NCBI RefSeq assembly: GCF_009758015.1
Contig: NZ_WSEL01000003.1
Span: 1,054,001-1,118,000, forward strand
Direction of reading: 5' to 3'
DNA length: 64,000 nucleotides
From: Ramlibacter pinisoli
GTDB taxonomy: Bacteria; Pseudomonadota; Gammaproteobacteria; Burkholderiales; Burkholderiaceae_C
Position numbers and translations under genes: made by a program. Positions 1 through 16,957 of this stretch are shown piece by piece. Positions within the stretch are counted from its first letter, which is position 1. Each line of letters opens with the position of its first letter. The notes beneath the pieces are model-generated. The model was not told the DNA's origin and did not search any database. It saw nothing but the letters and a program-made list of their open reading frames with translations.

Positions 1-632
1 GAGGTGGCATGCGGCAGCGACATCGTGCCCTCGGCCAGCAGTTGCAGGTCGTGCTGGCGGCCGGCCACGAACGACGAGCACACCGCCGGCGAGGCGCCGA
101 ACAGGTACAGCAGCAGGAAGGCGTGGCGGCGGAAGTTGCGGATCAGCGCGAAATAGCCGTCGCTGGACACGCCCGGCAGCGACCAGTTGTAGTGGATGCC
201 CGAGATGGTCTGCATGCGCCGGCCGTAGCGGTGCGCCAGGCCCATGCGGTAGACGCTCTTGGCGCGCCCGACGTTGGAGGGGCCGTAGCTGCCGATCGGG
301 ATGGTCTCGTCGGCCGGCAGGTTGCACGGCATGCTCGACACCCACATCATCTCGTCGCCCAGCGCGCGCACCGTCGCCTGGTGGATGCGCAGCAGCTCCT
401 CCAGGCAGGTCTCGGGCGTCGCGTGCACGCCGGTGATCAGTTCGAGCTGCGCCTCGCTGTAGTCGGTGGTGATGCAAGGATGCGTCAGCGCCGACCCCAG
501 GCCGGCCGGATGCGGCGTGAGGGCCAGCGCGCCGCTGGCCGTGGCGCGCAGGCTCTCCTTCTCGATGCCGCGGCGGATGCCGCGCAGGCGGTCGGCGGAC
601 AGGGCGTCCAGCGAGGATTGCAGGCGGCTCAT
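1..632 (-). CDS. gshA: Glutamate-cysteine ligase, 5' part only (runs off the window)
   Basis: First 210 residues of a proteobacterial glutamate-cysteine ligase, which joins L-glutamate and L-cysteine using ATP as the first step of glutathione synthesis in the cytoplasm. The reading frame on the minus strand starts at the ATG whose complement is at 630-632 and stays open to base 1. Visible family blocks are GIEKES (residues 22-27, with acidic residues expected to bind metal/substrate), [13 protein letters not shown] (55-67) and SGIHYNWS (144-151). The family is about 430-520 residues, so more than half lies outside. An upstream gap of about 175 bases separates it from the esterase gene. Confidence 0.93.
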
Positions 633-807
633 CGGGGCAGTTCCACCTGCGGCTGTGCGACTCGCGCTCGGGCGGCCGTGCGTCTCATGATCGGGTTGTC
701 TCGGCCGGTGTGTGGCGGGGCGCAGAAGTTAACACCTTTGGGCAAATCCTGCTGCGCGCGCCGGGTATGGCGCCTGCACCAGCACGCGCCGTGGCCCGCT
801 CGGGCAT

Positions 808-1479
808 TCAGGCCGGGGCCAGCACCTTCAGCAGCCAGGCGTTGAGGTCCTGGACCTCCTCCAGGCAGACCGAGTGCGCCATCGGGTACTCGTGCCAGTC
901 AACCGGGTGGCCGAGTTCGCGCAGCAGCTCGCACGAGGCCTGGCCGCGTGCCACCGGGACCACGTTGTCGTGGCTGCCGTGCGCCAGGAACACCGGCGTG
1001 CGCGCGTTCGCCTCGCTGCGCTCGGCCGCGGTGGTGGCGGCCAGCGGCAGGTAGCCCGACATGCCCACGATGCCGGCCAGCCGCTCGCGGTGGCGCAGGC
1101 CGGTGAGCAGCGCCATGGCGCAGCCCTGGGAGAAGCCGGCCAGCACGATGCGGTCGGAGCGGATGCCGCGCGCCTCCTCGCGGGCCAGCAGCGCCTCGAC
1201 CGCGGTGAGCGAGGCGCGCAGGCCGGCCTCGTCCTCGCGGCGGACCAGGTCGGTGCCGAGGATGTCGTACCAGGCCCGCATGCGGTAGCCGTTGTTGATC
1301 GTGACCGGCATCACCGGCGCATGCGGGAACACGAACCGCACCGGGCCGACCGGTCCCAGCTGCAGCTCGCTGGCAAAGGGCACGAAATCGTTGCCGTCGG
1401 CGCCCAGCCCGTGCAGCACGATGATGGTGGCGACCGGGTTGGGGCCGGTTTCGGTCTCGATGGTTTCCAGCAGGGACAT
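808..1479 (-). CDS. Alpha/beta-hydrolase carboxylesterase (phospholipase/carboxylesterase family)
   Basis: A 223-residue cytosolic serine esterase of the bacterial carboxylesterase/acyl-protein-thioesterase-like family; natural substrate unknown. The oxyanion block HGLG is at 23-26, the nucleophile elbow GFSQG at 115-119 (Ser117), and the remaining triad members fit Asp171 (HGSHD) and His202 (PMAHS). The start chosen is the ATG at 1477-1479, because the upstream in-frame extension is not family-like. It is divergent from the hibernation factor at 1589, with a 109-base shared control region. Length matches the family. Confidence 0.9.
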   Translation of the reverse strand: MSLLETIETETGPNPVATIIVLHGLGADGNDFVPFASELQLGPVGPVRFVFPHAPVMPVTINNGYRMRAWYDILGTDLVRREDEAGLRASLTAVEALLAREEARGIRSDRIVLAGFSQGCAMALLTGLRHRERLAGIVGMSGYLPLAATTAAERSEANARTPVFLAHGSHDNVVPVARGQASCELLRELGHPVDWHEYPMAHSVCLEEVQDLNAWLLKVLAPA

Positions 1480-1518
1480 GGCTTGGGACAAGGGGGGCTG
1501 ACGCAGGGCCCGCCATTG

Positions 1519-1525
1519 TCCTACA
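1519..1525 (+). promoter_or_regulatory. TCCTACA upstream element (copy ahead of the hibernation factor gene)
   Basis: TCCTACA, reading toward the downstream gene 63 bases away. The base context is GTCCTACACC, and a CTGACG at 1498-1503 would sit about 18 bases upstream, so a promoter -10 role is possible. This is one of several co-oriented intergenic copies in the window; the function is inferred only from position and repetition. Confidence 0.4.
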
Positions 1526-1588
1526 CCCCATCCGCTGGCCTTGTCGCCACACTTGGTCGCCACGCAACGCGTTTGGCGAAGGAAGAGC

Positions 1589-1951
1589 ATGCAGGTGCAG
1601 GTGAACACGAGCAACGGCGTCGAGAACAAGGACACCCTGGAGCGCTGGGCCACCGACTATCTCAACGAGGCGCTGGCGCGCTTCTCCCAGGACATCACGC
1701 GCGTCGAGGTCCAGATGCGCGAGACCAGCAACAGCAGGAATGGCGCGGTCGACAAGCGCTGCATGCTCGAGGCCCGCATCGCCGGCCGCGACCCGGTCGC
1801 CGCCACCCACCACGCGCCGTCGCAGGACGAGGCGTTCCGCGGCGCGACGCAGCGGCTCATCCACCTGCTGGACCACACGCTCGGCAAGCTCGACCGTCAC
1901 CAGCACCGCGACCGCGACACCATCCGCAAGGACCCGAGCGCCGTCGAGTGA
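1589..1951 (+). CDS. HPF/RaiA-family ribosome hibernation factor
   Basis: A 120-residue protein resembling the short form of the ribosome hibernation promoting factor (sigma-54 modulation protein/S30EA family), which binds the small ribosomal subunit in stationary phase. The N-terminus (MQVQVNTSNGV) and the following amphipathic helix with ARFSQDITRVEVQMRE match the beta-alpha-beta fold of the family. The C-terminus is rich in His, Arg and Asp (HRDRD) and there is no long-form dimerisation tail. The start at 1589 is preceded by a GGAAGAG ribosome site. It is divergent from the esterase and sits in a stretch of small stress-type genes. Confidence 0.82.
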   Translation: MQVQVNTSNGVENKDTLERWATDYLNEALARFSQDITRVEVQMRETSNSRNGAVDKRCMLEARIAGRDPVAATHHAPSQDEAFRGATQRLIHLLDHTLGKLDRHQHRDRDTIRKDPSAVE

Positions 1952-1989
1952 GGGACCGCGGCCTGTGTGGGTTGCGCGGCGGTGGCCGC

Positions 1990-2166
1990 TCAACTGCCGG
2001 GTTCGTCCGTGCGCCGGTTCGGCGCCCCGTGGTACCCCATGAAGGCCGCGCCCTCCGGATCGGCATAGCCGCCGTGGTCCCAGGGCAGTTCCCGCCGGGC
2101 CTCGCGGGTCATGCACGCGGACAGCGTGAGCATGGCGAGCAGGCAAAGGAGTGGGCGCAGCAGCAT
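1990..2166 (-). CDS. Small predicted lipoprotein
   Basis: A 58-residue protein with a hydrophobic signal sequence and a lipobox LSAC (Cys18), so it is probably lipid-anchored in the envelope. The mature part is short and polar, with PWDHGGYADPEGAAF in the middle. I do not recognise a named family. The start ATG is at 2164-2166, and an upstream element carrying TTCCTACG in gene orientation lies at 2219-2227. Its next neighbour upstream, a C39-like peptidase lipoprotein at 2339, is divergently transcribed. Confidence 0.6.
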   Translation of the reverse strand: MLLRPLLCLLAMLTLSACMTREARRELPWDHGGYADPEGAAFMGYHGAPNRRTDEPGS

Positions 2167-2218
2167 GGGGGATTCCGGAACGGTGAACCCACGATAGGCG
2201 CCATGTCGAGTTGCCCTG

Positions 2219-2227
2219 CGTAGGAAC
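2219..2227 (-). promoter_or_regulatory. TCCTACA-like upstream element ahead of the small lipoprotein
   Basis: The minus strand reads GTTCCTACG, a one-base variant of the TCCTACA element, oriented toward the lipoprotein gene whose start is about 52 bases downstream. Role inferred from position only. Confidence 0.3.
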
Positions 2228-2338
2228 GCCGCGGGACGTGGCGTCGGCTGCCACCGCCGGGCTGGAGCGCAGCGCGCTTCCATTTGTCGGCTTTCGCCTC
2301 TTCTACTTCGCGCGTCCTTGCGGCATGCTTGCGTCCCG

Positions 2339-3352
2339 ATGACGACCGCACCGGCTTCTCCCACCGCCAGTGGCGGCGCGGGCTCGCGCCGGCGCTGGCT
2401 CGCGGGCTGCGCGGCCGTGCTGCTGTCCGGCTGCGCGCAGATGGTGCCGCAGTCGCTGCAGCTGCGCACCGGCTGGCCGTCGGGCGTGCAGCAATCGGTC
2501 GAGCTCGAGGCCGTTCCCTTCTTCCCCCAGGATGAGTACCAATGCGGCCCCGCCGCGCTGGCCACCGTCCTGGCGGCCAGCGGCATCGACGTCACGCCCG
2601 ATGCCCTGGTCGACCAGGTCTGGCTGCCCGAGCGGCGCGGCAGCCTGCAGCTGGAGATGCTGGCCGCCGCGCGCCGCTACGGGCGGGTGTCATACCTGCT
2701 CGCGCCACGCTACGCCGACCTCCTGCGCGAGGTGGCCGCGGGCAACCCGGTGCTGGTGCTGCAGGACGTGGGCCTGCTCACCGTCACCTGGCACTACGCC
2801 GTGGTGAACGGCTTCGACTATCCGAGCGGCAGCGTGGTCCTGCGCTCGGGCACCCGGCGCCGCCAGGAAATGGCGTTCAGCGCCTTCGAGCGCAGCTGGA
2901 TGCACAGCGGCTACTGGGCCATGGTGGTCGCGCCGCCGGATCGCATCCCGGCCACCGCCACCGAGGACGCCTGGATGACCGCGGTGCTCGCGATGGCGCG
3001 GGTCGCCGATGGGCGCGCCGCGATGGCCGGCTTCGCCGCCGCCCTGCAACGCTGGCCGGACAACCAGGCCGCGGCCGTCGGCCTGGCCAACCAGTACCAC
3101 GCGCGCGGCGATCTTGCCAAGGCGGCGATGGTGCTGGGCGAGGCGCGCCGGCGGCACCCCGCCTCGGCGATCGTCGGCAACAACCTGGCCCAGGTGCTGT
3201 CCGACCAGGGCCGCAACCAGGAGGCGCTGGCGCTGATCGAGCCGCTGGCCGCCGACAGCCGCAACCCCTTCGCAAGCGAGATTCGCGCCACGCGCGAGCA
3301 GATCCTGCAGAAGCTGCGCCAGGCCGGCGCCACCCAGCCACCCCGGCGTTGA
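2339..3352 (+). CDS. PA2778-type C39-like cysteine peptidase lipoprotein with TPR repeats
   Basis: A 337-residue predicted envelope lipoprotein: signal region with lipobox LSGC (Cys32), then a peptidase-C39-like domain (about 58-205), then TPR-like helical repeats (about 210-337). Candidate catalytic residues are Cys69 in EYQCGPAA, His152 in TWHYAVVNGFD and Asp160. This is the arrangement of the PA2778 family; its substrates are not established. The ATG at 2339 was preferred over an in-frame ATG at 2318 because it puts a normal spacing before the hydrophobic segment. A long non-coding gap of 329 bases follows. Confidence 0.82.
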   Translation: MTTAPASPTASGGAGSRRRWLAGCAAVLLSGCAQMVPQSLQLRTGWPSGVQQSVELEAVPFFPQDEYQCGPAALATVLAASGIDVTPDALVDQVWLPERRGSLQLEMLAAARRYGRVSYLLAPRYADLLREVAAGNPVLVLQDVGLLTVTWHYAVVNGFDYPSGSVVLRSGTRRRQEMAFSAFERSWMHSGYWAMVVAPPDRIPATATEDAWMTAVLAMARVADGRAAMAGFAAALQRWPDNQAAAVGLANQYHARGDLAKAAMVLGEARRRHPASAIVGNNLAQVLSDQGRNQEALALIEPLAADSRNPFASEIRATREQILQKLRQAGATQPPRR

Positions 3353-3681
3353 CCGTCGGGTCGCAGCGCGCCCGGCCTACAGCCCGTCGCGCCGATGGCT
3401 TGCGGCAATGCCGCGTTGCCCCGCCCACACTGCAGCGGTGCCCGCCGGGGTGCCGCGCTACGAGACAGGGATCGGGCCTCCGCGCTTGCCGCGAAACGAC
3501 CAACCATTGTCCAGCGGCCCCGGCGGGCCACTGCCTGGGCGGCCCGCCGGATGATGCGCCGTCGTGGTGCGCGGCCCGACTGCCCCAATGGGCGTCCGAC
3601 GGAGTACCGCGGGGTCGGCCTACAGCTTGCAACCGGCCGGATGCCTACGCTGGACCCATCCACCACCTCGCGGAGTCTTCC
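3353..3681. other. 329-base gap without a convincing gene
   Basis: This gap lies between the C39-like peptidase and the DUF4864 gene. No frame in it shows start, ribosome site and family-like protein together. It holds two copies of GGCCTACAG, at 3374-3382 and 3617-3625, both on the plus strand, and GC-rich partial dyads around 3520-3550. The downstream copy is placed as a control element of the DUF4864 gene. No terminator with a T-run is visible after the peptidase gene. Confidence 0.5.
3617..3625 (+). promoter_or_regulatory. CCTACA upstream element ahead of the DUF4864 gene
   Basis: GGCCTACAG, oriented toward the gene and 56 bases ahead of its start codon. Same core and orientation as the other TCCTACA copies. 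The role is inferred. Confidence 0.35.
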
Positions 3682-4125
3682 ATGGCCACGCAGTCCCACC
3701 GCATCCTGCTGCTGCTCGCGACGGCGGCTGCAGCGCTCTGCTTCCATGTGCGTGCCGTCGCGAACCCGTTGACCGAGGTGGAAGCGGCCAAGGTGCGCGA
3801 GGTGATCGTGGCGCAGATCGCGGCGCTGCAGGAAGACGACGCCGATGGCGCCTTCCAGACCGCCACGCCGTCCGTGCAGCAGGCCATCGGCAGCTCCGGA
3901 CGCTTCCTTGCGATGGTGCGGGGTGCCTACCCCATGGTCTACCGCCCGGCCTCGGTGAGCTTCCACAAGCCCGAGGAAGAGGACGGCAGCGTTCTGCAGA
4001 TGGTCGAGATCAAGGACGACGAGGACAAGTCCTGGCTGGCGCTGTTCGCGCTCGAACTGCAGCCGGATCGCAGCTGGCGCATCAGCGGCTGCCTGGTGGC
4101 CGAGAACCCCTGGCAATCGATCTGA
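3682..4125 (+). CDS. DUF4864 domain secreted protein
   Basis: A 147-residue protein with an N-terminal signal sequence (hydrophobic residues about 8-25, probable cleavage after the VRAVA region), so it is likely periplasmic. The rest resembles the DUF4864 family, a small cystatin/NTF2-like fold: VREVIVAQIAALQEDDADGAF, then YPMVYRP and a C-terminal strand with WRISGCLV. No catalytic residues are evident and the role is unknown. The start ATG is at 3682 and a strong terminator follows at 4173, so the gene is probably monocistronic. Confidence 0.72.
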   Translation: MATQSHRILLLLATAAAALCFHVRAVANPLTEVEAAKVREVIVAQIAALQEDDADGAFQTATPSVQQAIGSSGRFLAMVRGAYPMVYRPASVSFHKPEEEDGSVLQMVEIKDDEDKSWLALFALELQPDRSWRISGCLVAENPWQSI

Positions 4126-4172
4126 GAGGACGCATCCTTCACCGGTCCGGCGCGCCGCTCCCGACCATCCGG

Positions 4173-4201
4173 AAAGCCGGGGCCCGCCCGGCTTTTTCTT
4201 T
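4173..4201 (+). terminator. Intrinsic terminator after the DUF4864 gene
   Basis: Nine-base-pair stem AAAGCCGGG/CCCGGCTTT (4173-4181 with 4187-4195), loop GCCCG, then a T-rich run ending TTTCTTT. It lies 47 bases after the stop codon at 4125. Confidence 0.85.
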
Positions 4202-4231
4202 GCGCCGGCGCGGCCTGCCTCGGCCGTCACG

Positions 4232-4870
4232 TCAGAGCTGGGTGAACAGGTCGCGCGCCTGCTGGGTTTCCGGCAGCACGTAGACAACGCCCTCGCGCTG
4301 GCCCAGCAGGGGCTCGATCACGTCGAGGTAGAACGGGACCGGCACCACCACGCAGCCGAGCGAGACCCGGCGCGCGTCCGGCCGGCCGGCGTCCAGGCGC
4401 GCCGCCCGCACGTCGTGCGAGCGGCCCGGGCGCAGGCGGTGGATGGCCAGCGCGGCCTCGTAGTCGAACCACACCACCGGCTCGCCGTTGCGGTTGCGCC
4501 CGGGTTGGGTGAGGAAACGGCCGGCGGGCGTGGTGCGCTCGGCGAACGGCAGCACGCCGTTCTGGGCCCGGTCGCCGACACCCGGCGCGCTGTAGTCGCC
4601 GACCGCCGCCCCCAGCAGGACCGGGGTGGCGGCGCGCAGGCGCCCCGACGGCTCAAAAACGTAGAGATGCGCCGCCTTCTTGTCGACCACCAGGAACGGC
4701 TTGTCCTCCGCGTCCCGGGACTGCAGCACCCACTGCACCATGTCGCGCGCTTCCGCCGACGGGCGCTCGCGCTCGAAGCGGGCATCCAGCTGCGCCTGCG
4801 GTCCCGCCAGGGCCGCACCGGCGATCGCCCATGCGAAGGCCAGTGCGACGGTCTTGTTTTTCCATTCCAT
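4232..4870 (-). CDS. L,D-transpeptidase-like (YkuD) secreted protein, paralogue 1
   Basis: A 212-residue secreted protein with a signal sequence (about 5-22, ALAGP cleavage region) and a YkuD-like catalytic region. The conserved His is likely His144 (AIHRLRP), and the active cysteine is Cys173 in VSLGC (170-173). The Arg usually found after the Cys block is absent; the sequence continues VVVP. Members of this family crosslink peptidoglycan stems or attach proteins to them, but these divergent forms are often catalytically uncharacterised. The start at 4870 follows a GGGGA stretch. It is downstream of, and clearly similar to, the larger paralogue starting at 5831. Confidence 0.75.
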   Translation of the reverse strand: MEWKNKTVALAFAWAIAGAALAGPQAQLDARFERERPSAEARDMVQWVLQSRDAEDKPFLVVDKKAAHLYVFEPSGRLRAATPVLLGAAVGDYSAPGVGDRAQNGVLPFAERTTPAGRFLTQPGRNRNGEPVVWFDYEAALAIHRLRPGRSHDVRAARLDAGRPDARRVSLGCVVVPVPFYLDVIEPLLGQREGVVYVLPETQQARDLFTQL

Positions 4871-8686: not shown

Positions 8687-8731
8687 CGCCGTCGCGCCGC
8701 CGGGGAATCCGTGGGGCATGATCGGCATCCC

Positions 8732-9448
8732 GTGAACCCGATCCGCCTCCTCCTTGCCACTGCCGCGCTGCTGTTCGCGGCCCACGCCGCCAGCGCCGCG
8801 CCGTTCGAGGACACCATGGCCCAGCGCACGCTGGCCTGTACCGTCTGCCACGGCCTGCAGGGGCGCGCCGGACCCGACGGCTACTACCCGCGCATCGCGG
8901 GCAAGCCCGAGGGCTATCTCTTCAACCAGCTGCTCAACTTCCGCGATGGCCGCCGCCACTACGGCGCGATGACGCGGCTGCTCGACCCGCTGTCCGACGC
9001 CTACCTGCAGCAGATCGCGCGCCACTTCGCCTCGCTCGAGGTGCCGTATCCGCCGCCCACGGCCCCGCGCGTGCCCGCCGAACTGCTCGAACGCGGGCGC
9101 CGCATCGCGCTGGAGGGCGTCCCTGCCAGCCAGGTGCCGGCCTGCGCGGCCTGCCACGGTGCGGCGCTCACCGGCGTGCAGCCGAACACGCCCGGCCTGC
9201 TCGGCCTGCCGGCCGACTACCTGCAGGCGCAACTGGGCGCCTGGCGCACCGGCCAGCGGCGCGCCCACGCGCCGGACTGCATGGCGCAGGTCGCGCGCGC
9301 GCTCTCGCCCGAGGACCTGAATGCGGCCGTCACCTGGCTGGCATCGCAGCCGGCGCCTGCGCAGCCGAAGGCCGTGGACCGCCTGCCCCAGCCGCCCGCC
9401 ATCGCATGCGGCAGCGCCGCCCTGCCGGCCGGGAGGCAGCAGCCATGA
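8732..9448 (+). CDS. Dihaem c-type cytochrome (c4-like), periplasmic
   Basis: A 238-residue secreted cytochrome. The signal sequence is residues 1-23 (IRLLLATAALLFAAHAASA), and haem-binding sites are CTVCH (36-40) and CAACH (138-142), giving two similar halves as in cytochrome c4. Likely axial Met residues lie in YGAMTR and DCMAQ. The start is taken as the GTG at 8732, which places the signal sequence at the N-terminus. The gene overlaps the next cytochrome by four bases (ATGA), so they are co-translated and probably pass electrons between each other. No dehydrogenase gene is next to them. Confidence 0.87.
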   Translation: MNPIRLLLATAALLFAAHAASAAPFEDTMAQRTLACTVCHGLQGRAGPDGYYPRIAGKPEGYLFNQLLNFRDGRRHYGAMTRLLDPLSDAYLQQIARHFASLEVPYPPPTAPRVPAELLERGRRIALEGVPASQVPACAACHGAALTGVQPNTPGLLGLPADYLQAQLGAWRTGQRRAHAPDCMAQVARALSPEDLNAAVTWLASQPAPAQPKAVDRLPQPPAIACGSAALPAGRQQP

Positions 9449-10710
9449 AGCGCATCCTGCTGCTGGTCGCGGTGCTGCTGCTGGCGTTCGCCGGCTGGGT
9501 CGGCTGGTCGAACTACGGCGGCGAGGACGAGGGCCGCGCCAGTGCGGGCACGGCGCCGCCATCGGCCGAACGCGGCGCTTACCTCGTCAAGGTGGGCAAC
9601 TGCATGGCCTGCCACACCGATCGCGGCGGCGCGCCCTGGGCCGGCGGCCGGCCGGTCGAGACGCCGTTCGGCACCGTCTATGCGACCAACCTCACCGCCG
9701 ACCCCGCCCACGGCCTGGGGCGCTGGAGCGCCGACGAGTTCTGGCGCGCCCTGCACCACGGCCGCTCGCGTGACGGCCGCCTGCTCTACCCGGTGTTCCC
9801 GTACACCAACTACACCGCGGTCACCCGCGCCGACGCCGACGCGATGTTCGCCTACCTGCGCACCGTGCCGCCGGTGGCGCGGCCCAACACGCCGCACCAG
9901 CTGCGCTGGCCGTACAGCACCCAGGCCGCGCTCGCCGTGTGGCGCACGCTGTACTTCCGCCCCGGCACCTGGCAGGACCAGCCGGCGCAGGCGGCGACCT
10001 GGAACCGCGGCGCCTACCTGGTGCGCGGCCTCGGGCACTGCTCGGCCTGCCACAACACCCGCAACGCGCTCGGCGCCAACAGCGACGTGTTCGGCCTGTC
10101 CGGCGGCGTGATCCCGATGCAGGACTGGTACGCGCCCTCGCTCACCTCGCCGCACGAGGCGGGCGTGGCGCAATGGTCGGTGCAGGACGTGGCGCGCCTG
10201 CTGCGCACCGGCGTCGCCAACGACGCGACCGTGGTGGGCCCGATGGCGGAGGTCGTGCTGGGGAGCACGCAGCACCTGTCGGCCGAGGACGCGCTGGCCA
10301 TGGGCACGTACCTGAAGACGCTGCCGCAGACCGACGAACCGCCGGGGGAGGATGCGCCCCCCGTCAGCGCGCGGGTGGCCGAGCTCGGCACCCGGCTCTA
10401 TGGCGAGCACTGCGCGCAATGCCACGGCGAACGCGGCGAGGGACGCACCGGCGCCTACCCGCCGCTGGCCGGCAACCGCGCGGTGACGATGGCGGTGACG
10501 GCCAACCTGGTGCAGGTGGTGCTGGGCGGCGGGTTCGCGCCCTCGACCGAGGGCAACCCGCGGCCGTTCGGCATGCCGCCCTTCGTCACGCTGCTGTCGG
10601 ACGCCGACATCGCCGCGGTGCTGACGCACATCCGCACCTCCTGGGGCAACCGCGCCGCGCCGGTCAGCGAGTTCGAGGTCGGCCAGCACCGCAGCGGCAG
10701 CTTCCGCTAG
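9445..10710 (+). CDS. Trihaem cytochrome c, alcohol-dehydrogenase cytochrome-subunit type
   Basis: A 421-residue protein with an N-terminal membrane anchor or signal (MKRILLLVAVLLLAFAGWVGW) and three haem sites: CMACH (53-57), CSACH (199-203) and CAQCH (323-327). The arrangement matches the cytochrome c subunit of membrane-bound alcohol, aldehyde or gluconate dehydrogenases (family usually 400-480 residues). The block FGTVYATNLTAD is typical. It overlaps the upstream dihaem gene (ATGA). The catalytic subunit it would serve is not in the window, so the donor is unknown. Its stop overlaps the convergent oxygenase stop by four bases. Confidence 0.88.
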   Translation: MKRILLLVAVLLLAFAGWVGWSNYGGEDEGRASAGTAPPSAERGAYLVKVGNCMACHTDRGGAPWAGGRPVETPFGTVYATNLTADPAHGLGRWSADEFWRALHHGRSRDGRLLYPVFPYTNYTAVTRADADAMFAYLRTVPPVARPNTPHQLRWPYSTQAALAVWRTLYFRPGTWQDQPAQAATWNRGAYLVRGLGHCSACHNTRNALGANSDVFGLSGGVIPMQDWYAPSLTSPHEAGVAQWSVQDVARLLRTGVANDATVVGPMAEVVLGSTQHLSAEDALAMGTYLKTLPQTDEPPGEDAPPVSARVAELGTRLYGEHCAQCHGERGEGRTGAYPPLAGNRAVTMAVTANLVQVVLGGGFAPSTEGNPRPFGMPPFVTLLSDADIAAVLTHIRTSWGNRAAPVSEFEVGQHRSGSFR

Positions 10711-11729
10711 GCGGCCGGGGCGGTTTCCGCCGCCGCCTCGCTCCAGGACTTGCGGTCCCGCTGCAGCCCGTGCGCGACGAACTCCCCCGCGACGACGGGC
10801 TCGTACCGGATGGTGCCGGCGCCCGGCAACTGCGCCGGGTCCACCACCGCACGGTACGAGGGGTGGTGGAACTGCGGGATCGAATAGCGCTCGTGGCCGG
10901 TCTCGTTGACGACGCGGTGGATCGCCGAGCGGAAGCGCCCGTTGCTCCAGCGTGTCATCAGGTCGCCGACGTTGACGATGATGGCTTGCGGATCCGGCGG
11001 CGCGTCGATCCAGTCCCCGTTCGCCGTCTCCACGTGCAGGCCGCCGTTCGAGTCGTTCAGCAGCAGCGTGATGATCCCGCGGTCGGAATGCGCGCTCGCG
11101 CCGATGCCGGCGTCGGGCTGCGGATCCTGCGGCGGGTAGTGCACCAGGCGCATGTTGGTGTAGGGCTTCTCGCACTGGCCCACGAAGAAGTTCTCGTCGG
11201 CACCGAGCGCCAGCGCCATCGCGCGCAGCACGTGCCGGCCGCACTCGAGCTTGCTGAAGTACAGCGCCTCGATCGCGCGCCGGAAGCCGGGCAGGTCCGC
11301 GGGCCAGCTGTTGGTCGAATGGAACGGCAGGCCGGCCAGCACGTCGGGGTCGTCCGCGGCCAGCGGGAAGCCCATGTCGAACGATTCCTTCAGGTCCGCC
11401 GGGATGCCGGGGCGCTTGGTGTCGCCCAGCGGCTGGTAGCCGCGGATCTGGCGCGCCGCGGTGGGCCGGCAGGCCATGCGCTTGTCCACCGGCATCGCGA
11501 AGAAGCGCTCGGCCGCCTCGAAGCCGCCCTGGCGCAAGGCGTCCGGCACGTTGTGGCGGTACAGGTAGAAGAAGCCGTAGCGCGCGCAGGCGTCGGCGAT
11601 CCGGCGGGCCACCTGCAGCCGCGCGGCGCGGTCGCCGAACAGCCAGGGATGCAGGTCGATCTGCGGCAGCCGCTCGGTGCTGCTGATGCGCGCCGTGTTC
11701 AGCGCGTTCTGTTGCTCTGCGGTTCTCAT
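10707..11729 (-). CDS. Isopenicillin-N-synthase-like Fe(II) oxygenase 1
   Basis: A 340-residue cytosolic enzyme of the 2-oxoglutarate/Fe(II) oxygenase (isopenicillin N synthase-like) superfamily. It has the N-terminal block LPQIDL (21-26), YGFFYLYRHNV (51-61), the iron ligands His214-x-Asp216 (AHSD) and His271 (AIHRVV), and the RxS pair Arg281/Ser283 that would bind a 2-oxoglutarate carboxylate. The substrate is unknown. The ATG at 11727-11729 is preceded by AAAGGTG. It is the last minus-strand gene of the 10.7-17.0 kb cluster, with a LysR-type dyad at 11821 upstream, and is a distant paralogue of the oxygenase at 15591. Confidence 0.87.
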   Translation of the reverse strand: MRTAEQQNALNTARISSTERLPQIDLHPWLFGDRAARLQVARRIADACARYGFFYLYRHNVPDALRQGGFEAAERFFAMPVDKRMACRPTAARQIRGYQPLGDTKRPGIPADLKESFDMGFPLAADDPDVLAGLPFHSTNSWPADLPGFRRAIEALYFSKLECGRHVLRAMALALGADENFFVGQCEKPYTNMRLVHYPPQDPQPDAGIGASAHSDRGIITLLLNDSNGGLHVETANGDWIDAPPDPQAIIVNVGDLMTRWSNGRFRSAIHRVVNETGHERYSIPQFHHPSYRAVVDPAQLPGAGTIRYEPVVAGEFVAHGLQRDRKSWSEAAAETAPAA

Positions 11730-11774
11730 GCAAACACCTTTCAGGGCTGGCGTTGGGGATGGGTCGGCCGCCAA

Positions 11775-11781
11775 TGTAGGA
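11775..11781 (-). promoter_or_regulatory. TCCTACA upstream element ahead of oxygenase 1
   Basis: The minus strand reads GGCTCCTACATTGG, 45 bases before the start at 11729. It may double as the -10 (TACATT), with the LysR dyad about 40 bases further upstream. Confidence 0.4.
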
Positions 11782-11820
11782 GCCGCCCGTGTCCGCGGCA
11801 AGCGCCGAATTTTCGCCAGT

Positions 11821-11841
11821 GCGTTCTCATGCCGAGAACGC
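11821..11841. promoter_or_regulatory. LysR-type dyad, copy 1
   Basis: Perfect 8-bp inverted repeat GCGTTCTC-N5-GAGAACGC, containing a T-N11-A core (TCTC...GAGA) as LysR regulators prefer. It lies between the LysR gene stop (11846) and the start of oxygenase 1 (11729). A near-identical copy is at 15493-15513. The assignment to the adjacent LysR protein is an inference. Confidence 0.6.
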
Positions 11842-11845
11842 GAAT

Positions 11846-12799
11846 TCAGCCCCGGGGGGCGGCCGGCCGAGCGGCTTGCGCGAGCCCCTGCTCGATGGCG
11901 CCCACCATCGCCCGCGCGGCCGCGGACAGCGGCCGGCCCTTGCGCACGCAGCAGGCGATCACCTGCGCGGGAATGCCGGCATCGCGCAGCGGGACGAACA
12001 CCACCGGCGACCGCGCGCCCTGCGGATGGAACAGCTGCTGCGTGAGGATGGCGATGCCGACACCGGCTTCCGCCGCGCTGCGCATCACCTCGTAGGAGTT
12101 GGTGGACAGCACCGTGCGCGGCGACACGTCGGCCTGCGCGAACATGCCGTCCAGGGTGGCGCGCAACGCGAGGCTCTCGTCCGGCATCACCAGGTCGTGG
12201 CCGGCGCAGTCGCTCAGGCGCACCGTGCGCAGCCTGGCCAGGGGATGGGTGCGCCGGACCATCACGCAGGCCTGCACGTGGTGGCGCACCGCGAAGGTCA
12301 GGTCCGGGTGCGGGCGCGGGTTGAACGCCAGGGCGAGGTCGATCTCGTCGGCGAGCAGCAGCTCGACCAGGCGCGGCGAGCCGCCGACCACCGCGTGGTG
12401 GACGATGCCCGGGTGCGCCTTGCGGAAGGCCGTCAGCACGCTGGGCAGGAGTTCGCGCCAGATGCCTTCGTTCACGCCCATCTTGACGGTCCCCTGGTCC
12501 AGGCCGAGCAGGGAGTTCACTTCGGTGCGGGCGGTGCCCAGTTCGGCGATCGCCCGCTTGAGGCGGTACAGCAGGACCTCGCCCGCCGCCGTGAGCTTGA
12601 GGCCGGCACGCCCCTTGCCGCGCTCGAACAGCAAGGTGCCCATCTCCTCCTCCAGGTACTTCACGTGCCGGTTGAGGGCCGACGCGGCGATGTGGACCTG
12701 CTCGGATGCCTTGCGGAACGAGCCGGCCCGCGCGACTTCATGGAAGTAGCGCAGGGACAGCGGGTGCTTGAGCGGGAAGAAACTGTCGCGCGCGGCCAT
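11846..12799 (-). CDS. LysR-family regulator of the oxygenase/ThDP cluster
   Basis: A 317-residue LysR-type transcription factor. The winged helix-turn-helix is at about 14-73 (LRYFHEVARAGSFRKASEQVHIAASALNRHVKYLEEE), and the effector-binding domain follows from about 95. The third helix uses AASALNRHVK rather than the commoner QPAVSRQI, as in some metabolic LysR proteins. It is surrounded by the ThDP enzyme/Bug genes upstream and oxygenase 1 downstream, all on the minus strand, and both cluster control regions carry the same dyad. It is therefore the likely regulator of this cluster. The ligand is unknown. Confidence 0.9.
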   Translation of the reverse strand: MAARDSFFPLKHPLSLRYFHEVARAGSFRKASEQVHIAASALNRHVKYLEEEMGTLLFERGKGRAGLKLTAAGEVLLYRLKRAIAELGTARTEVNSLLGLDQGTVKMGVNEGIWRELLPSVLTAFRKAHPGIVHHAVVGGSPRLVELLLADEIDLALAFNPRPHPDLTFAVRHHVQACVMVRRTHPLARLRTVRLSDCAGHDLVMPDESLALRATLDGMFAQADVSPRTVLSTNSYEVMRSAAEAGVGIAILTQQLFHPQGARSPVVFVPLRDAGIPAQVIACCVRKGRPLSAAARAMVGAIEQGLAQAARPAAPRG

Positions 12800-12862
12800 G
12801 CTGGAACTCCGGGCCGGTCCTGGCCGGCTCGCTGGCAGTTTACGGTCGCGCCGCGGGCGTCC

Positions 12863-14404
12863 CTAGGGAACGGCCAGCTCGATGAGGAAGGGGCCGGCCG
12901 TGGCCATCGAGCGTTCGAACAGCGCGTTGAACTGGTCCATCGTCGCCGCCACGCCGGAGGCGACGCCGAAGCCGTTGGCGAGCTGGTCCCAGCGGATGTC
13001 CGGCTGCCCCAGGCTGAAGAGCGCCGACGCCGCGGGACCGGCCGTGGCCCGCACCCGCCGCATCTCGTCGTGGAGGATGGCGTAGCGCCGGTTGGAGAAG
13101 ATGACGGTGGTGACGTCCAGCCGCTCGCGCGCCTGCGTCCACAGCGCCTGCACGTTGTACAGCGCGGACCCGTCGGCCTGCAGGACGACGACGCGCCGGC
13201 CCGCGCCCGCGACCGCGGCGCCCGTGGCCACCGGCAGCCCCATGCCGATCGCGCCGCCGGTCAGCTGCAACCAGTCGTGCGCGGCGGCATCGAGCGTGCC
13301 GTCGAACACCGCACGCCCGAAGCTCACGCCTTCATCGACGACGATCGCGCCGGGCGGCAGCAGTGCGCCCAGCGACCGGGCGAACGCCTGCGGGCTCACG
13401 TCGCCCGCTGCGGGTGACGGCCGCTCGCGCCGCGGGGCATCGACCGTGGCGGCGCATCCCAGGCGCTCGGCCAGGCGGCCGAGTGCGCACACCACGTCCT
13501 CCTCGGGCGCCGCGACCAGGGCCACGTGCAGGCCGGGCGGTTCGGGCCGCTGGTGGCCGTCGGGCCCGGCGAACGCGAACACGGGCCGGCGCGCGCCGAC
13601 CAGCAGCAGGCGGCGCACGCCGGCCAGCAGCCGGGTCGCCGGCTCGGGCGCGTAGGGCATGCGCCCGATCCGGGGGGTGCCGTCGCCGCGCGCCATGCGC
13701 GCGACGGTCGCTCCGGCGAGCAGCCGGGCGCCGGTCCTCTCGGCGATGCGCGCGGCGAGCGCAAGCCCGGGGCCGTGCAAGGCATCCTGCCCCAGCAGGA
13801 GCAGCGTGCCCTCGCCTTCGAGCGCGCAGGCGGCGGCATGCGCGAGCCGGTCGTCGGGCACCCCGGCGCGGGGCGGGACGGGCTGCGGCGCGGCGACCTG
13901 CGCGCCTTCGTCCCAGCAGACGTCGGACGGAAGGACCAGGCTGGCGATGCGCCCGCCGCCGGCGCGTGCCGCGGCGACGGCGCTGGCGGCGTCGGGCGCG
14001 ACGGCGCACGCGTCGAGCGACGTGCGGGTCCACGCCGACACTGTCTTCGCGAGGGCTTCGGTGTCGGCGGCCAGGGGCGGATCCAGCGGACGGTGGTGGT
14101 GCGCCTGGTCCCCGATGAGGTTGAGCACCGGCACGCCGGCGCGGCGCGCGTTGTGCAGGTTGGCCAGCCCGTTCGCCAGCCCGGGGCCGCAGTGCAGCAG
14201 CGTGGCGGCGGGCTTGCCGGCGATGCGCGCGTAGCCGTCGGCCGCCCCGGTGGCGACGCCCTCGGCCAGCGCCGGGATCGCCCGCAGGCCGGGCACCTCG
14301 TCGAGCCCGGCCACGAAATGCATCTCGCTCGTGCCGGGGTTGGCGAAGCAGGTGTCGACGCCTGCCGCCACCAGCGTGCGCAGCAGCGCCTGTGCGCCGT
14401 TCAT
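12863..14404 (-). CDS. Acetolactate-synthase-like ThDP enzyme 1
   Basis: A 513-residue protein with the three-domain fold of thiamine-diphosphate decarboxylases/acetolactate synthases. The N-terminal domain carries the expected cofactor-activating Glu48 (ALAEGVATGAADGYARI). The C-terminal metal/ThDP motif is present but altered: ADGS at 410-413 with Asn417, where the first residue is normally Gly (GDG). There is no sign of the regulatory-subunit partner of true acetolactate synthase, so a side role (2-keto acid or 2-hydroxyacyl chemistry) is likelier than valine synthesis. The start overlaps the stop of the Bug receptor gene by four bases, so the two are translationally coupled. Confidence 0.8.
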   Translation of the reverse strand: MNGAQALLRTLVAAGVDTCFANPGTSEMHFVAGLDEVPGLRAIPALAEGVATGAADGYARIAGKPAATLLHCGPGLANGLANLHNARRAGVPVLNLIGDQAHHHRPLDPPLAADTEALAKTVSAWTRTSLDACAVAPDAASAVAAARAGGGRIASLVLPSDVCWDEGAQVAAPQPVPPRAGVPDDRLAHAAACALEGEGTLLLLGQDALHGPGLALAARIAERTGARLLAGATVARMARGDGTPRIGRMPYAPEPATRLLAGVRRLLLVGARRPVFAFAGPDGHQRPEPPGLHVALVAAPEEDVVCALGRLAERLGCAATVDAPRRERPSPAAGDVSPQAFARSLGALLPPGAIVVDEGVSFGRAVFDGTLDAAAHDWLQLTGGAIGMGLPVATGAAVAGAGRRVVVLQADGSALYNVQALWTQARERLDVTTVIFSNRRYAILHDEMRRVRATAGPAASALFSLGQPDIRWDQLANGFGVASGVAATMDQFNALFERSMATAGPFLIELAVP

Positions 14405-15420
14405 TCGAGCTTGATGCCCGCCCGCGCGACGACGGATTTCCAGGTGTTGATCTCGTTTTCCAGCAGCCTGGTGAACTGCTCGGGCGTGTTCGGGAACGGC
14501 GGCATGCCCCGCTCCTCCAGCTGCCTGGCCATGTCGGGCTCGGCCAGGATGGCGACCACTTCGTCGTGCAGGCGGCTGACGGTGGCGGCGGGGGTGCGGG
14601 CCGGCGCGAACAGGCCGATCCAGCCCGGCACGCCCATGTTGCGGATGCCGGCTTCTGCCAGCGTCGGGATGCTGGGAGCGAACGCCAGGCGCTGGCTGTT
14701 GACGACGGCGAGCGCCTTCATCTTGCCGGCCTTGACCTGCGGCATGGCGACGAAGGCGTTCTCGAACATGTACTGCACGTTGCCGGCGAAGAGGTCGGCC
14801 CAGGCGGCCGGACCGCCCTTGTAGGGGATGTGCGTGGAGTTGATGCCGGCGACGTAGTTGAGCTGTTCGCCGTACAGGTGGTTGGTGGTGTTGTTGCCGA
14901 AGGACGCGTAGTTGATCTTGCCCGGGTTGGCCTTCGCGTACGCGATGAACTCGGCCAGCGTGTTGGCAGGCACCTGGGTGTTGGTGACGAGCATGAGCGT
15001 GGAGGACACGACCGTCGTGATCGGAGCGAAGTCCTTCAGCGTGTCGTACGGCACGTCGCGCACGGTCGCCTGCGCGAGCGCCATCTCGGACGGGGCGCCC
15101 ACGAGCAGGGTGTAGCCGTCGGGGTCGGAGCGGGCCACCGACTGGGCGCCCAGGCGGCCGCCGGCGCCTGGCCGGTTCTCGACGACCACCGGCTGGCCCA
15201 GCCGCCGCGCGAGGCGTTCGGAAATCTGCCGCGCGGTCGTGTCGGCGCTGCCCCCGGGCGGGTAGGCCACGACGATCTTCAGGGGTTTGTTCGGCCAGCC
15301 CGGCTGGGCGAACGACGGGCCGCAGGCGACGGCGGCGGCGCCGAGCAGGATGGCGCGACGGGAGAGTGCGGCGCGGGCGTGGAAGGCGTTGCCCGTCGGT
15401 TCCGGCTTGAATGTGTCCAT
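14401..15420 (-). CDS. Bug-family tripartite tricarboxylate (TTT) solute receptor 1
   Basis: A 339-residue periplasmic binding protein. The N-terminus has twin Arg (SRRAILLGAAAV), a hydrophobic core and cleavage near SFAQ, so Tat export is possible. The mature start WPNKPLKIVVAYPPGGSADT and the later block VVVENRPGAGG are diagnostic of Bug receptors. These receptors catch small organic acids; some pair with TctAB membrane units, which are absent here. It overlaps the ThDP enzyme gene (ATGA) and is divergent from the second oxygenase. The ligand cannot be told from the sequence. Confidence 0.9.
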   Translation of the reverse strand: MDTFKPEPTGNAFHARAALSRRAILLGAAAVACGPSFAQPGWPNKPLKIVVAYPPGGSADTTARQISERLARRLGQPVVVENRPGAGGRLGAQSVARSDPDGYTLLVGAPSEMALAQATVRDVPYDTLKDFAPITTVVSSTLMLVTNTQVPANTLAEFIAYAKANPGKINYASFGNNTTNHLYGEQLNYVAGINSTHIPYKGGPAAWADLFAGNVQYMFENAFVAMPQVKAGKMKALAVVNSQRLAFAPSIPTLAEAGIRNMGVPGWIGLFAPARTPAATVSRLHDEVVAILAEPDMARQLEERGMPPFPNTPEQFTRLLENEINTWKSVVARAGIKLE

Positions 15421-15492
15421 GGCTGTCGAGGAGGGGGATTGATGATTAGAGGAGGCGCCGGTCAGCACGACAAGCATCGAATCGATCCGTTT

Positions 15493-15513
15493 GCGTTCTG
15501 TCTTCGAGAACGG
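15493..15513. promoter_or_regulatory. LysR-type dyad, copy 2
   Basis: GCGTTCTG-N5-GAGAACGG: same bases as copy 1 at 11821 apart from the spacer and two outer positions, with the T-N11-A core intact. It sits midway in the 170-base divergent region between the Bug receptor (start 15420) and oxygenase 2 (start 15591), so one bound regulator could control both directions. Confidence 0.6.
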
Positions 15514-15552
15514 TAGCGTGCCGAATCCGTGCTTCTTGACAGCAAGGTTCGT

Positions 15553-15559
15553 TCCTACA
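15553..15559 (+). promoter_or_regulatory. TCCTACA upstream element ahead of oxygenase 2
   Basis: GTTCCTACAGTG, 31 bases before the ATG at 15591, with a TTGACA at about 15536-15541. Position and orientation match the other copies. Confidence 0.4.
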
Positions 15560-15590
15560 GTGCCGGTATCGTTCTTGCTGAGTGGCCCCC

Positions 15591-16565
15591 ATGAGCATCC
15601 CCATCCTCGATCTGCAGGGCGCACTGTCCCGGGGCGGTCCACGCAGTGCCGAGGTGGCACGCCAGCTGCGCGCAGCCGCCGTCGGCTCGGGCTTTTTCTA
15701 CGTGCGCAACCACGGCGTCGCCGCGCAGCAGGTGGCGCGCCAGTTCGAGCTGGCCCGGCAGCTGCTGGAAGACGTGCCGCCGGGCACGCGCGAACGGCTG
15801 GACATGAAGAACTCGCCGACCCTGCGCGGCTACGAGCGCCTGGGCGCCCAGACGCTGGACCTGGACGCGAAGCCGGACCTGAAGGAAAGCTTCTATTGCG
15901 GCATGGCGTATCCGGCCGACCATCCCTACGTGAGGGCCGGCTACCAGACCTACGGCGGCAACCAGTGGCCGGCGCAGGTGCCGCAGGCGCCCGCGGTGTG
16001 CGAGGCGTACATCCGCAGCCTGCTGGCCCTCGCGCGCCGCCTGATGCAGTTGCTGGCGCTGTCGCTCGCACTGCCCGAGGACTACTTCGACGGCACGAGC
16101 GAGAGCCCGATGGTCACCCTGCGGATGCTGCGCTATCCCGCGCATCCGCCCGACGCGGACCAGCACACCTTCGGCGCCGGCGCGCACACCGACTGGGGCG
16201 CCATCACCATCCTGGCGCAGGATTCACATGGCGGGCTCGAGGTGTGCATGCCCGACGGCACCTGGGCCGACGCCACGCCCATCGACGGCTGCTTCGTCGT
16301 GAACCTGGGCGACATGATCCCGCGCTGGACCAACGGCCTGTACCACTCCAATCCGCACCGCGTGCGCAACCGGCACTCGTCGGGCCGCCCGCGGTTTTCG
16401 GTCCCCTTCTTCTACGAGCCGGACTACATGGCCCGCATCGAGGCCGTGCCCGGCACCGTCCCGGCCGGCGAGCAGCCGCGGTTCACGCCCTGCACGGCCG
16501 GCGAACACCTGGCCGAGATGTACCGGCGCACCTACGGCAAGCCTGCGGAGGGCACCCCGGCATGA
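15591..16565 (+). CDS. Isopenicillin-N-synthase-like Fe(II) oxygenase 2
   Basis: A 324-residue 2-oxoglutarate/Fe(II) oxygenase-superfamily enzyme. It starts with the family block SIPILDL (2-8), then GSGFFYVRNHGV (33-43). Iron ligands are His199-x-Asp201 (AHTDWG) and His256 (NPHRV), and the RxS pair is Arg268/Ser270. An upstream GTG at 15582 is possible, but the ATG at 15591 fits the family start. It overlaps the VOC gene at its 3' end (ATGA), suggesting joint translation. Divergent from the Bug/ThDP pair, with a shared LysR dyad. The substrate is unknown. Confidence 0.88.
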   Translation: MSIPILDLQGALSRGGPRSAEVARQLRAAAVGSGFFYVRNHGVAAQQVARQFELARQLLEDVPPGTRERLDMKNSPTLRGYERLGAQTLDLDAKPDLKESFYCGMAYPADHPYVRAGYQTYGGNQWPAQVPQAPAVCEAYIRSLLALARRLMQLLALSLALPEDYFDGTSESPMVTLRMLRYPAHPPDADQHTFGAGAHTDWGAITILAQDSHGGLEVCMPDGTWADATPIDGCFVVNLGDMIPRWTNGLYHSNPHRVRNRHSSGRPRFSVPFFYEPDYMARIEAVPGTVPAGEQPRFTPCTAGEHLAEMYRRTYGKPAEGTPA

Positions 16566-16957
16566 GGGTGAACTTCAACCTGTTCTGCCGCGACATCGAA
16601 GCGCAGATGGCCTTCTACCGCGACGTGCTGCAGCTGGCCGAACGCACCGAGCTGCGCTCGCCCCTGTACCGCGCACTGGCGGCACGCGACGTCGAGATCG
16701 GCTTCAATGCGCCCGGTGCGTACGAACTGCTCGGCCTGGGGCAACGGCGCCCGGACCAGCGGGGGCCCGCCCCCGTCACCGGCTACGCGACCTTCATGGC
16801 CGAGTCGCCGGCCGCCGTCGACGGCGCCGCGCAGCGGGCAGCCGAGCGCGGCGCGACGGTGGTGAAGGCGCCGTACCGCACGTACTACGGCGACTGGCAG
16901 GTGGTGCTGGAAGATCCAGAAGGCAACGTGTTCCGGGTGGGCGCGAAGGCCGACTGA
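16562..16957 (+). CDS. VOC (glyoxalase/bleomycin-resistance-like) family protein
   Basis: A 131-residue vicinal-oxygen-chelate fold protein (beta-alpha-beta-beta-beta repeats). It begins VNFNLFCRDIEAQMAFYRDVLQL and ends in the typical VVLEDPEGNVFRVG. Members bind a metal and act on vicinal oxygen substrates (lyase, dioxygenase, isomerase). Possible ligands are not complete enough to predict the reaction. It overlaps oxygenase 2 by four bases, so it probably acts on the same pathway product. A short convergent gap separates it from the c-subunit-like gene. Confidence 0.82.
   Translation: MRVNFNLFCRDIEAQMAFYRDVLQLAERTELRSPLYRALAARDVEIGFNAPGAYELLGLGQRRPDQRGPAPVTGYATFMAESPAAVDGAAQRAAERGATVVKAPYRTYYGDWQVVLEDPEGNVFRVGAKAD

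Follow-up and report, generated by a model that had tools for sequence, protein, structure and literature searches.

In the general layout of LysR-type transcriptional regulators (LTTRs), as given in PMC8407307, a recognition binding site (RBS) lies at about −65 and an activation binding site (ABS) extends over the −35/−10 region. Here we consider a cluster of six genes at positions 10707 to 16957 of a 64,000-nucleotide stretch of Ramlibacter pinisoli DNA (contig NZ_WSEL01000003.1, positions 1,054,001 to 1,118,000; hereafter the window), which resembles this layout in having a T-N11-A dyad near −65, a conserved block over the −35 region and a −10-like box at fixed spacing. The cluster encodes two isopenicillin N synthase (IPNS)-like oxygenases (ox1 and ox2), a LysR regulator, a thiamine diphosphate (ThDP) enzyme, a Bug receptor and a vicinal oxygen chelate (VOC) protein. 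Judging from sequence, we consider it likely that a single LysR controls all six genes from two operators, and that the cluster is a lineage-specific composite regulon with recruited oxygenase units. As in the general layout (PMC8407307), this LysR appears to control its own operon and neighboring genes; it departs from what is set out there in that lysR closes an apparently activated operon and that one operator, dyad 2, appears to activate both ways. LysR control of small-acid catabolism would be shared with the 3-hydroxypropionate-responsive HpdR systems, although the HpdR site, GCCCCTGTGC-n6-GCACAGCGGC, is reported in PMC5431877 to be without T-N11-A and is not the operator of the window.

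The gene order, strands and families are as a previous sequence-only reading had given them (open reading frame list, Pfam). Four genes lie on the minus strand: ox1 (10707..11729; DIOX_N 1.3e-24, 2OG-FeII_Oxy 9e-28), which belongs to the Fe(II)/2-oxoglutarate family; lysR (11846..12799; HTH_1 2.1e-17, LysR_substrate 4.6e-44); thdp, for a benzoylformate-decarboxylase-like enzyme (12863..14404; TPP enzyme N and C domains, NCBIfam PRK07586); and bug, for a Bug/TctC periplasmic receptor (14401..15420; TctC 4.2e-81). On the plus strand are ox2 (15591..16565; DIOX_N and 2OG-FeII_Oxy), of the same oxygenase family and by its tree position of a subfamily distinct from ox1, and voc, for a VOC-fold protein (16562..16957; Glyoxalase 4.6e-11). 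Overlaps of four bases join bug to thdp (14401-14404) and ox2 to voc (16562-16565), and ox1 overlaps a convergent cytochrome c gene (10707-10710).

The regulatory argument begins with two dyads of the form CGTTCT-N7-AGAACG, found at the positions previously reported: dyad 1 (11821..11841), a proposed LysR recognition site, and dyad 2 (15493..15513), a proposed operator common to two divergent promoters. Across the entire 5.5 Mb genome (11 contigs), the exact 12/12 form occurs only twice, both times in the cluster. One mismatch admits three further places, and two or fewer admit 53, which is below the count for a reversed-pattern control (82). Within the window, matches with up to three mismatches number 10 versus a mean of 5.81 expected, and 7 of 100 shuffles reach 10; because this count is only mildly above expectation, the weaker matches are background noise. 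The exact dyads, by the genome-wide count, are exceptional.

The LysR protein has an N-terminal HTH_1 and a C-terminal LysR_substrate domain, the arrangement that defines LTTRs. We know of no characterized member of its group. Homologs are found in G132, a genome of another genus of the same family (70% identity), and on two plasmids, one from Variovorax sp. SRS16 (59%) and the other from Caballeronia sp. SBC2 (50%); plasmid PBL-E5 gives the same match as SRS16 (59.2%), and the dyad comparison covers SRS16 only. In all three loci lysR accompanies acuI (acrylyl-CoA reductase), acyl-CoA ligase and enoyl-CoA hydratase genes, with the same operator and promoter block as in the window. The lysR/acuI gap contains a dyad with no mismatch in G132, two in SRS16 and one in SBC2, and the bug/lysR gap of G132 contains a second with one mismatch. 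Dinucleotide shuffles of these gaps and of both window intergenic regions yielded an equally good site 0 times in 2000 for each of the two window gaps, the two G132 gaps and the SBC2 gap, and 11 times in 2000 for the SRS16 gap.

G132 is the most informative of these loci, in that the LysR (70%), ThDP enzyme (61%) and Bug receptor (54%) homologs stand side by side, and the operator also precedes the acrylyl-CoA reductase, acyl-CoA ligase and enoyl-CoA hydratase genes. Its acuI is named by model (491 bits versus an equivalog cut-off of 440), and among the eight G132 genes scanned the only other to pass such a cut-off is a 4-hydroxybenzoate 3-monooxygenase gene further off; the gene in the acuI position of the SRS16 and SBC2 plasmids is annotated as an MDR family oxidoreductase. 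Because the G132 core adjoins acuI, the ligase, the hydratase and a succinate-semialdehyde-dehydrogenase-like gene, analogy suggests a small carboxylic acid as the inducer. SRS16 also has a Bug gene beside lysR (36% to that of the window). The window differs from all of these loci in having ox1 and ox2-voc under its operators, and no close relative of the SRS16 acyl-CoA ligase was found in the R. pinisoli genome (best match 31%), in a search made with the ligase alone.

The dyads are tied to promoters by a block of 24 bases, having CTTG, ATTG or CTTC close to its end, which lies at identical spacing from the dyad in seven outward directions: toward ox1, the bug operon and ox2 in the window, the bug operon and acuI in G132, and acuI in SRS16 and SBC2. 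Of 10000 background 24-mers taken from the window, the numbers that reach the leave-one-out scores of these directions are, in that order, 2, 0, 3, 0, 0, 0 and 0; for five other directions, four of which face the lysR end, 43 to 4269 do so. The block is thus present in 7 of 8 gene-facing directions. By eye, −10-like hexamers (TACATT, TCTAAT, TACAGT, TAGATT, TAGATT, TAGATT and TAGACT, in the same order) follow at the same distance in six directions; in SRS16, the seventh, the distance is one base longer. For the window this gives, on the minus strand, a block at 11798..11821 and a predicted −10 (TACATT) at 11773..11778 for ox1, with +1 predicted near 11766, and a block at 15470..15493 and a predicted −10 (TCTAAT) at 15445..15450 for bug-thdp-lysR, with +1 near 15438; on the plus strand, ox2-voc has a block at 15513..15536 and a predicted −10 (TACAGT) at 15556..15561, with +1 near 15568. 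The +1 positions are predicted by assuming a start seven bases after the −10.

At the three predicted window promoters, which together cover all six genes, the dyad center falls near −65, so that each combines a T-N11-A dyad at the LTTR position with a candidate activation site over −35. Since dyad 2 carries the block on both sides, both divergent operons (bug-thdp-lysR and ox2-voc) are probably activated; dyad 2 would thus serve these two, and dyad 1 probably serves ox1. The same predictions bear on gene starts: the ox1 reading frame reaches up to TTG 11801, but the predicted transcription start (about 11766) falls downstream of that codon, which makes ATG 11729 the likelier start. The start codons of bug and ox2 are ATG 15420 and ATG 15591. 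In this respect the sequence-only reading, which had placed the cluster in one LysR regulon, is strengthened: the exact dyads are unique to it within the genome, conserved beside LysR homologs at three other loci, and centered at about −65 of three predicted promoters.

Several observations nonetheless weigh against so unified a reading. The SRS16 dyad has two mismatches, two other SRS16 gaps (upstream of lysR and upstream of tauD) yield no site, and the loci of the distant LysR relatives L125 (39.5%) and L131 (42%) contain no site with two mismatches or fewer. The direction toward the lysR start in G132 is without the block (1107 of 10000), and we take it as not activated; a non-target direction in SRS16, toward the lysR end, scores fairly high (43 of 10000). 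The block was first spotted by eye and then leave-one-out tested on the same seven directions, three of which are homologous acuI promoters and so are not independent. A wider-regulon scan scored, in both directions, 46 of the 50 listed places among the 53 with up to two mismatches (three were never listed), leaving out the two exact and two weak places inside the window. Three of these 46 weak sites have block scores (9.4, 3.9 and 3.6) above the 99.9% background score of 2.96, though far below those of the training promoters (17–31), and because the best of them (9.4) adjoins a different LysR gene, related LysR proteins may share a site style. Exact dyads upstream of Bug genes in loci L047 and L051 are without a −35 block. 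The relatives of the oxygenases, described below, hint at N-heterocycles and not acids; given present sampling, loss or transfer in relatives is an alternative to recruitment; and any reaction order is guesswork.

If the dyads were chance repeats or the sites of an unrelated regulator, some of these observations would find a simple place: symmetric sites of the T-N11-A type are nothing unusual, another LysR gene has a similar weak site beside it, and exact dyads without the block occur in two other loci. However, both exact genome copies are in the cluster, and the sites are kept beside LysR homologs at a fixed promoter spacing, which makes such an explanation very improbable. Chance repetition in particular was rejected on genome-wide rarity, the shuffles and promoter spacing.

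Some of the loci encountered in these comparisons are of interest in themselves. Elsewhere in the R. pinisoli genome (C3:202725; L178:3226-3244) the dyad GGTTCT-N7-AGAAGG, whose −35 block matches moderately, has another LysR gene on one side and, by eye, a CoA-transferase, a Bug receptor and an HMG-CoA-lyase-like gene on the other; it is possibly a sister operator style. The exact CGTTCT-N7-AGAACG at L047:11906 (Cupriavidus) and L051:11899 (Ralstonia) lies about 100 bp upstream of the Bug gene, and both loci also contain ox2-VOC. The annotated row at L125:5790-11683 comprises genes for a substrate-binding protein, adenosine deaminase, a LysR (about 40%), ABC components and an IPNS-like oxygenase. 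By eye the gene order is similar at L131:6067-11841, from the genus of the window (LysR about 40%).

The six-gene set as a whole was found in no other genome. At E 1e-70 the LysR occurs in 2 of 299 family genomes including R. pinisoli itself, at E 1e-60 in 1 of 399 order genomes (its own), and at E 1e-50, among 60 genus genomes (45 of them with completeness of 90% or more and contamination of 5% or less), in its own and as one 42% relative. Similarly, ox1 occurs in 2 of 299 family genomes including its own (E 1e-80), and no second genome among the 299 holds both LysR and ox1; ox2 occurs in 1 of the 60 genus members, again its own (E 1e-120). LysR, Bug and ThDP are found together in 1 of the 298 other family genomes, G132, where the six-gene search of 20 kb around the LysR homolog finds no ox1 or ox2 relative. 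The one other family genome with ox1 relatives has two copies, near LysR genes of at most 31% identity, and the closer copy also adjoins, by eye, a receptor-like gene.

This distribution bears directly on the earlier proposal that the six genes form a dedicated, undescribed catabolic pathway selected as a unit, which we regard as doubtful. One operator and promoter design is common to all six genes, ox2 has no closer copy in its own genome than ox1 (37%) and a third oxygenase (35%), and, of the 38 best ThDP loci examined, 9 have some Bug relative (33–54%) within 1.5 kb of the ThDP gene; all of this would suit such a pathway. Against this stand the absence of the full set from other genomes, the confinement of ox2 to a single genus member, and the 80 ox2 loci, where the whole set appears in none and a ThDP relative (48%) in one, L076. 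This LysR, moreover, is present in 1 of the 38 ThDP loci, and two annotated plasmid loci of ThDP relatives are without an adjacent LysR, Bug or IPNS-like gene. The expectation that the neighboring genes would be co-conserved thus largely fails for the set as a whole and holds for two subsets, LysR-ThDP-Bug and ox2-VOC. The regulatory half of the sequence-only reading is right and stronger than it was stated, while a pathway of five co-conserved families is unsupported.

In ox2 the HxD...H metal triad and the RxS carboxylate-binding motif (H199, D201, H256, R268 and S270) are invariant in 27 aligned sequences (ox2 and 26 relatives), and the corresponding residues are present by eye in ox1. Isopenicillin N synthase proper was rejected as an identity, as the closest solved relatives are 9ovh and 6jyv, and neither protein matches an NCBIfam model at E 0.001. 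The two share 36% identity and a family, from which a local duplication might be supposed, but the tree puts them in separate supported clades, each with its own closest relatives and partners (the nearest relative of ox1, at 59%, is in G105), and contradicts such an origin, to which we assign almost no probability. Of the 55 closest ox2 loci, 23 have a divergent IPNS-like gene on the opposite strand upstream of ox2; its identity with ox1 was likewise rejected, since the eight copies sampled form their own clade.

Outside the window, ox2 belongs to a common ox2-VOC module of Comamonadaceae, Cupriavidus and relatives. Of the ox2 relatives in public genome contigs, 133 passed confirmation; the 80 best were retained, with flanks that extend to at most 8 kb and in some cases stop at a contig end. 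The 55 closest (56–84% identity) were not thinned, and L039 and L040 look like one strain. By tblastn, in 39 of these 55 loci the VOC gene starts within 200 bp after ox2, as in the window, and in 46 an NMT1-type ABC receptor gene ends within 400 bp upstream of ox2 on the same strand (an assignment resting on six receptors from five loci, all six NMT1 by Pfam). The window differs in having no NMT1 receptor gene directly upstream of ox2 and, in its place, the LysR operator and the divergent Bug gene.

These loci also raise the possibility that the parts of the cluster are co-regulated but separate, with ox2-VOC (perhaps ox1 as well) keeping an N-heterocycle job, Bug-ThDP serving a carboxylic acid, and the shared operator being recent or opportunistic. 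The one ox2 locus examined in detail, L058, encodes an amidohydrolase that scores above the PRK12393 cut-off and is related to 8-oxoguanine deaminase as well, along with cytosine-deaminase-like and creatininase-like genes below cut-off, and more distant oxygenase relatives are annotated near a nucleobase symporter, creatininase-family or adenosine deaminase gene. Yet only a few ox2 loci are annotated, inspection of the open reading frame list of the cluster turned up neither a hydrolase of this kind nor an ABC transporter gene, and the oxygenases lie under the operators of a regulator that elsewhere adjoins acid-CoA genes; we therefore treat this division of labor as a tentative and rather unlikely alternative to one composite regulon.

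The only solved relative of the VOC protein at E 0.001 is 2rbb. Two Glu are conserved, but His is missing from the protein, and in an alignment of 38 rows it never reaches 15 rows in any column; a metal-dependent VOC enzyme is without support. Because His is absent from the protein and none is common to its relatives, it may bind rather than turn over a ligand. Full-text literature searches returned no paper joining the IPNS family with LysR, TTT (tripartite tricarboxylate transporter) and thiamine pyrophosphate, none joining IPNS with 8-oxoguanine deaminase or with Comamonadaceae, and none joining PA0147 with oxidoreductase.

The ThDP enzyme scores 651 bits against NCBIfam PRK07586 (cut-off 363), a model named acetolactate synthase large subunit. 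This name is doubtful, because the score against the biosynthetic model TIGR00118 is 80.5 bits, far under the cut-off of 538.35. The closest solved structures are benzoylformate decarboxylases (MdlC type), with which the protein shares a fold family, a DGS motif, what we take to be the catalytic Glu, and one of two active-site His, presumably equivalent to His70; the relationship is distant (E 7.5e-31), the equivalent of His281 is not aligned, and NCBIfam assigns PRK07586 instead. The PRK07586 family is widespread, with a relative at E 1e-100 in 65 of 299 family genomes and in 25 of 60 genus genomes. The window member looks more like a 2-oxo acid decarboxylase, and the PRK07586 name may mislead annotation. 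For the Bug receptor, import of an acid is the expectation of its family, and orphan receptors of this kind are common in this bacterial group. No TctA or TctB partner was noticed by eye in the 6–22 kb open reading frame list, and no search was aimed at them.

We propose that LysR would sit on its dyad at about −65 and, with inducer, contact the conserved −35 block and recruit RNA polymerase, as in other LysR systems. Dyad 2 would act as a two-sided operator driving bug-thdp-lysR and ox2-voc, and dyad 1 would drive ox1. LysR, Bug and ThDP would be the older core, as seen in G132, and two unrelated IPNS-like units (ox1; ox2 with VOC) would have been recruited under the operators of that core; we infer that an operator-bearing core acquired its oxygenase units in this lineage. 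In terms of chemistry, Bug would bind a small organic acid in the periplasm, the ThDP enzyme would form an aldehyde by decarboxylation of a 2-oxo acid, and hydroxylation or oxidative cleavage of the substrate or a product would fall to the Fe(II) oxygenases. The cluster probably serves to break down a small 2-oxo or hydroxy acid. What the sequence supports is the gene families, the operators, the architecture of the promoters and the composite make-up. A bolder and distinctly improbable version is an undescribed catabolic route in which LysR swapped the acrylyl-CoA arm of an ancestral regulon for the two oxygenase units, with the Bug-bound 2-oxo acid processed by ThDP decarboxylation coupled to non-heme iron oxygenation, and operators kept or newly gained for each recruited unit.

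Two cytochrome c genes lie directly to the left of the cluster (8711-10710), the second overlapping the end of ox1 convergently by four bases. As to signs of a genomic island, no tRNA lies within the window, and cluster G+C resembles that of the flanks except for the G+C-richer thdp gene.

The analysis gives an operator and promoter that can be tested: CGTTCT-N7-AGAACG, a 24-base block over −35, and a −10 at fixed spacing. The identity of the inducer would help to assign substrates to the IPNS-like oxygenases and to the PRK07586 ThDP family. If the swapped-arm route were true, it would illustrate regulon capture clearly, with one LTTR operator acting on both sides. On the evidence assembled here, the cluster looks like an existing LysR regulon that took in two oxygenase units within one lineage.

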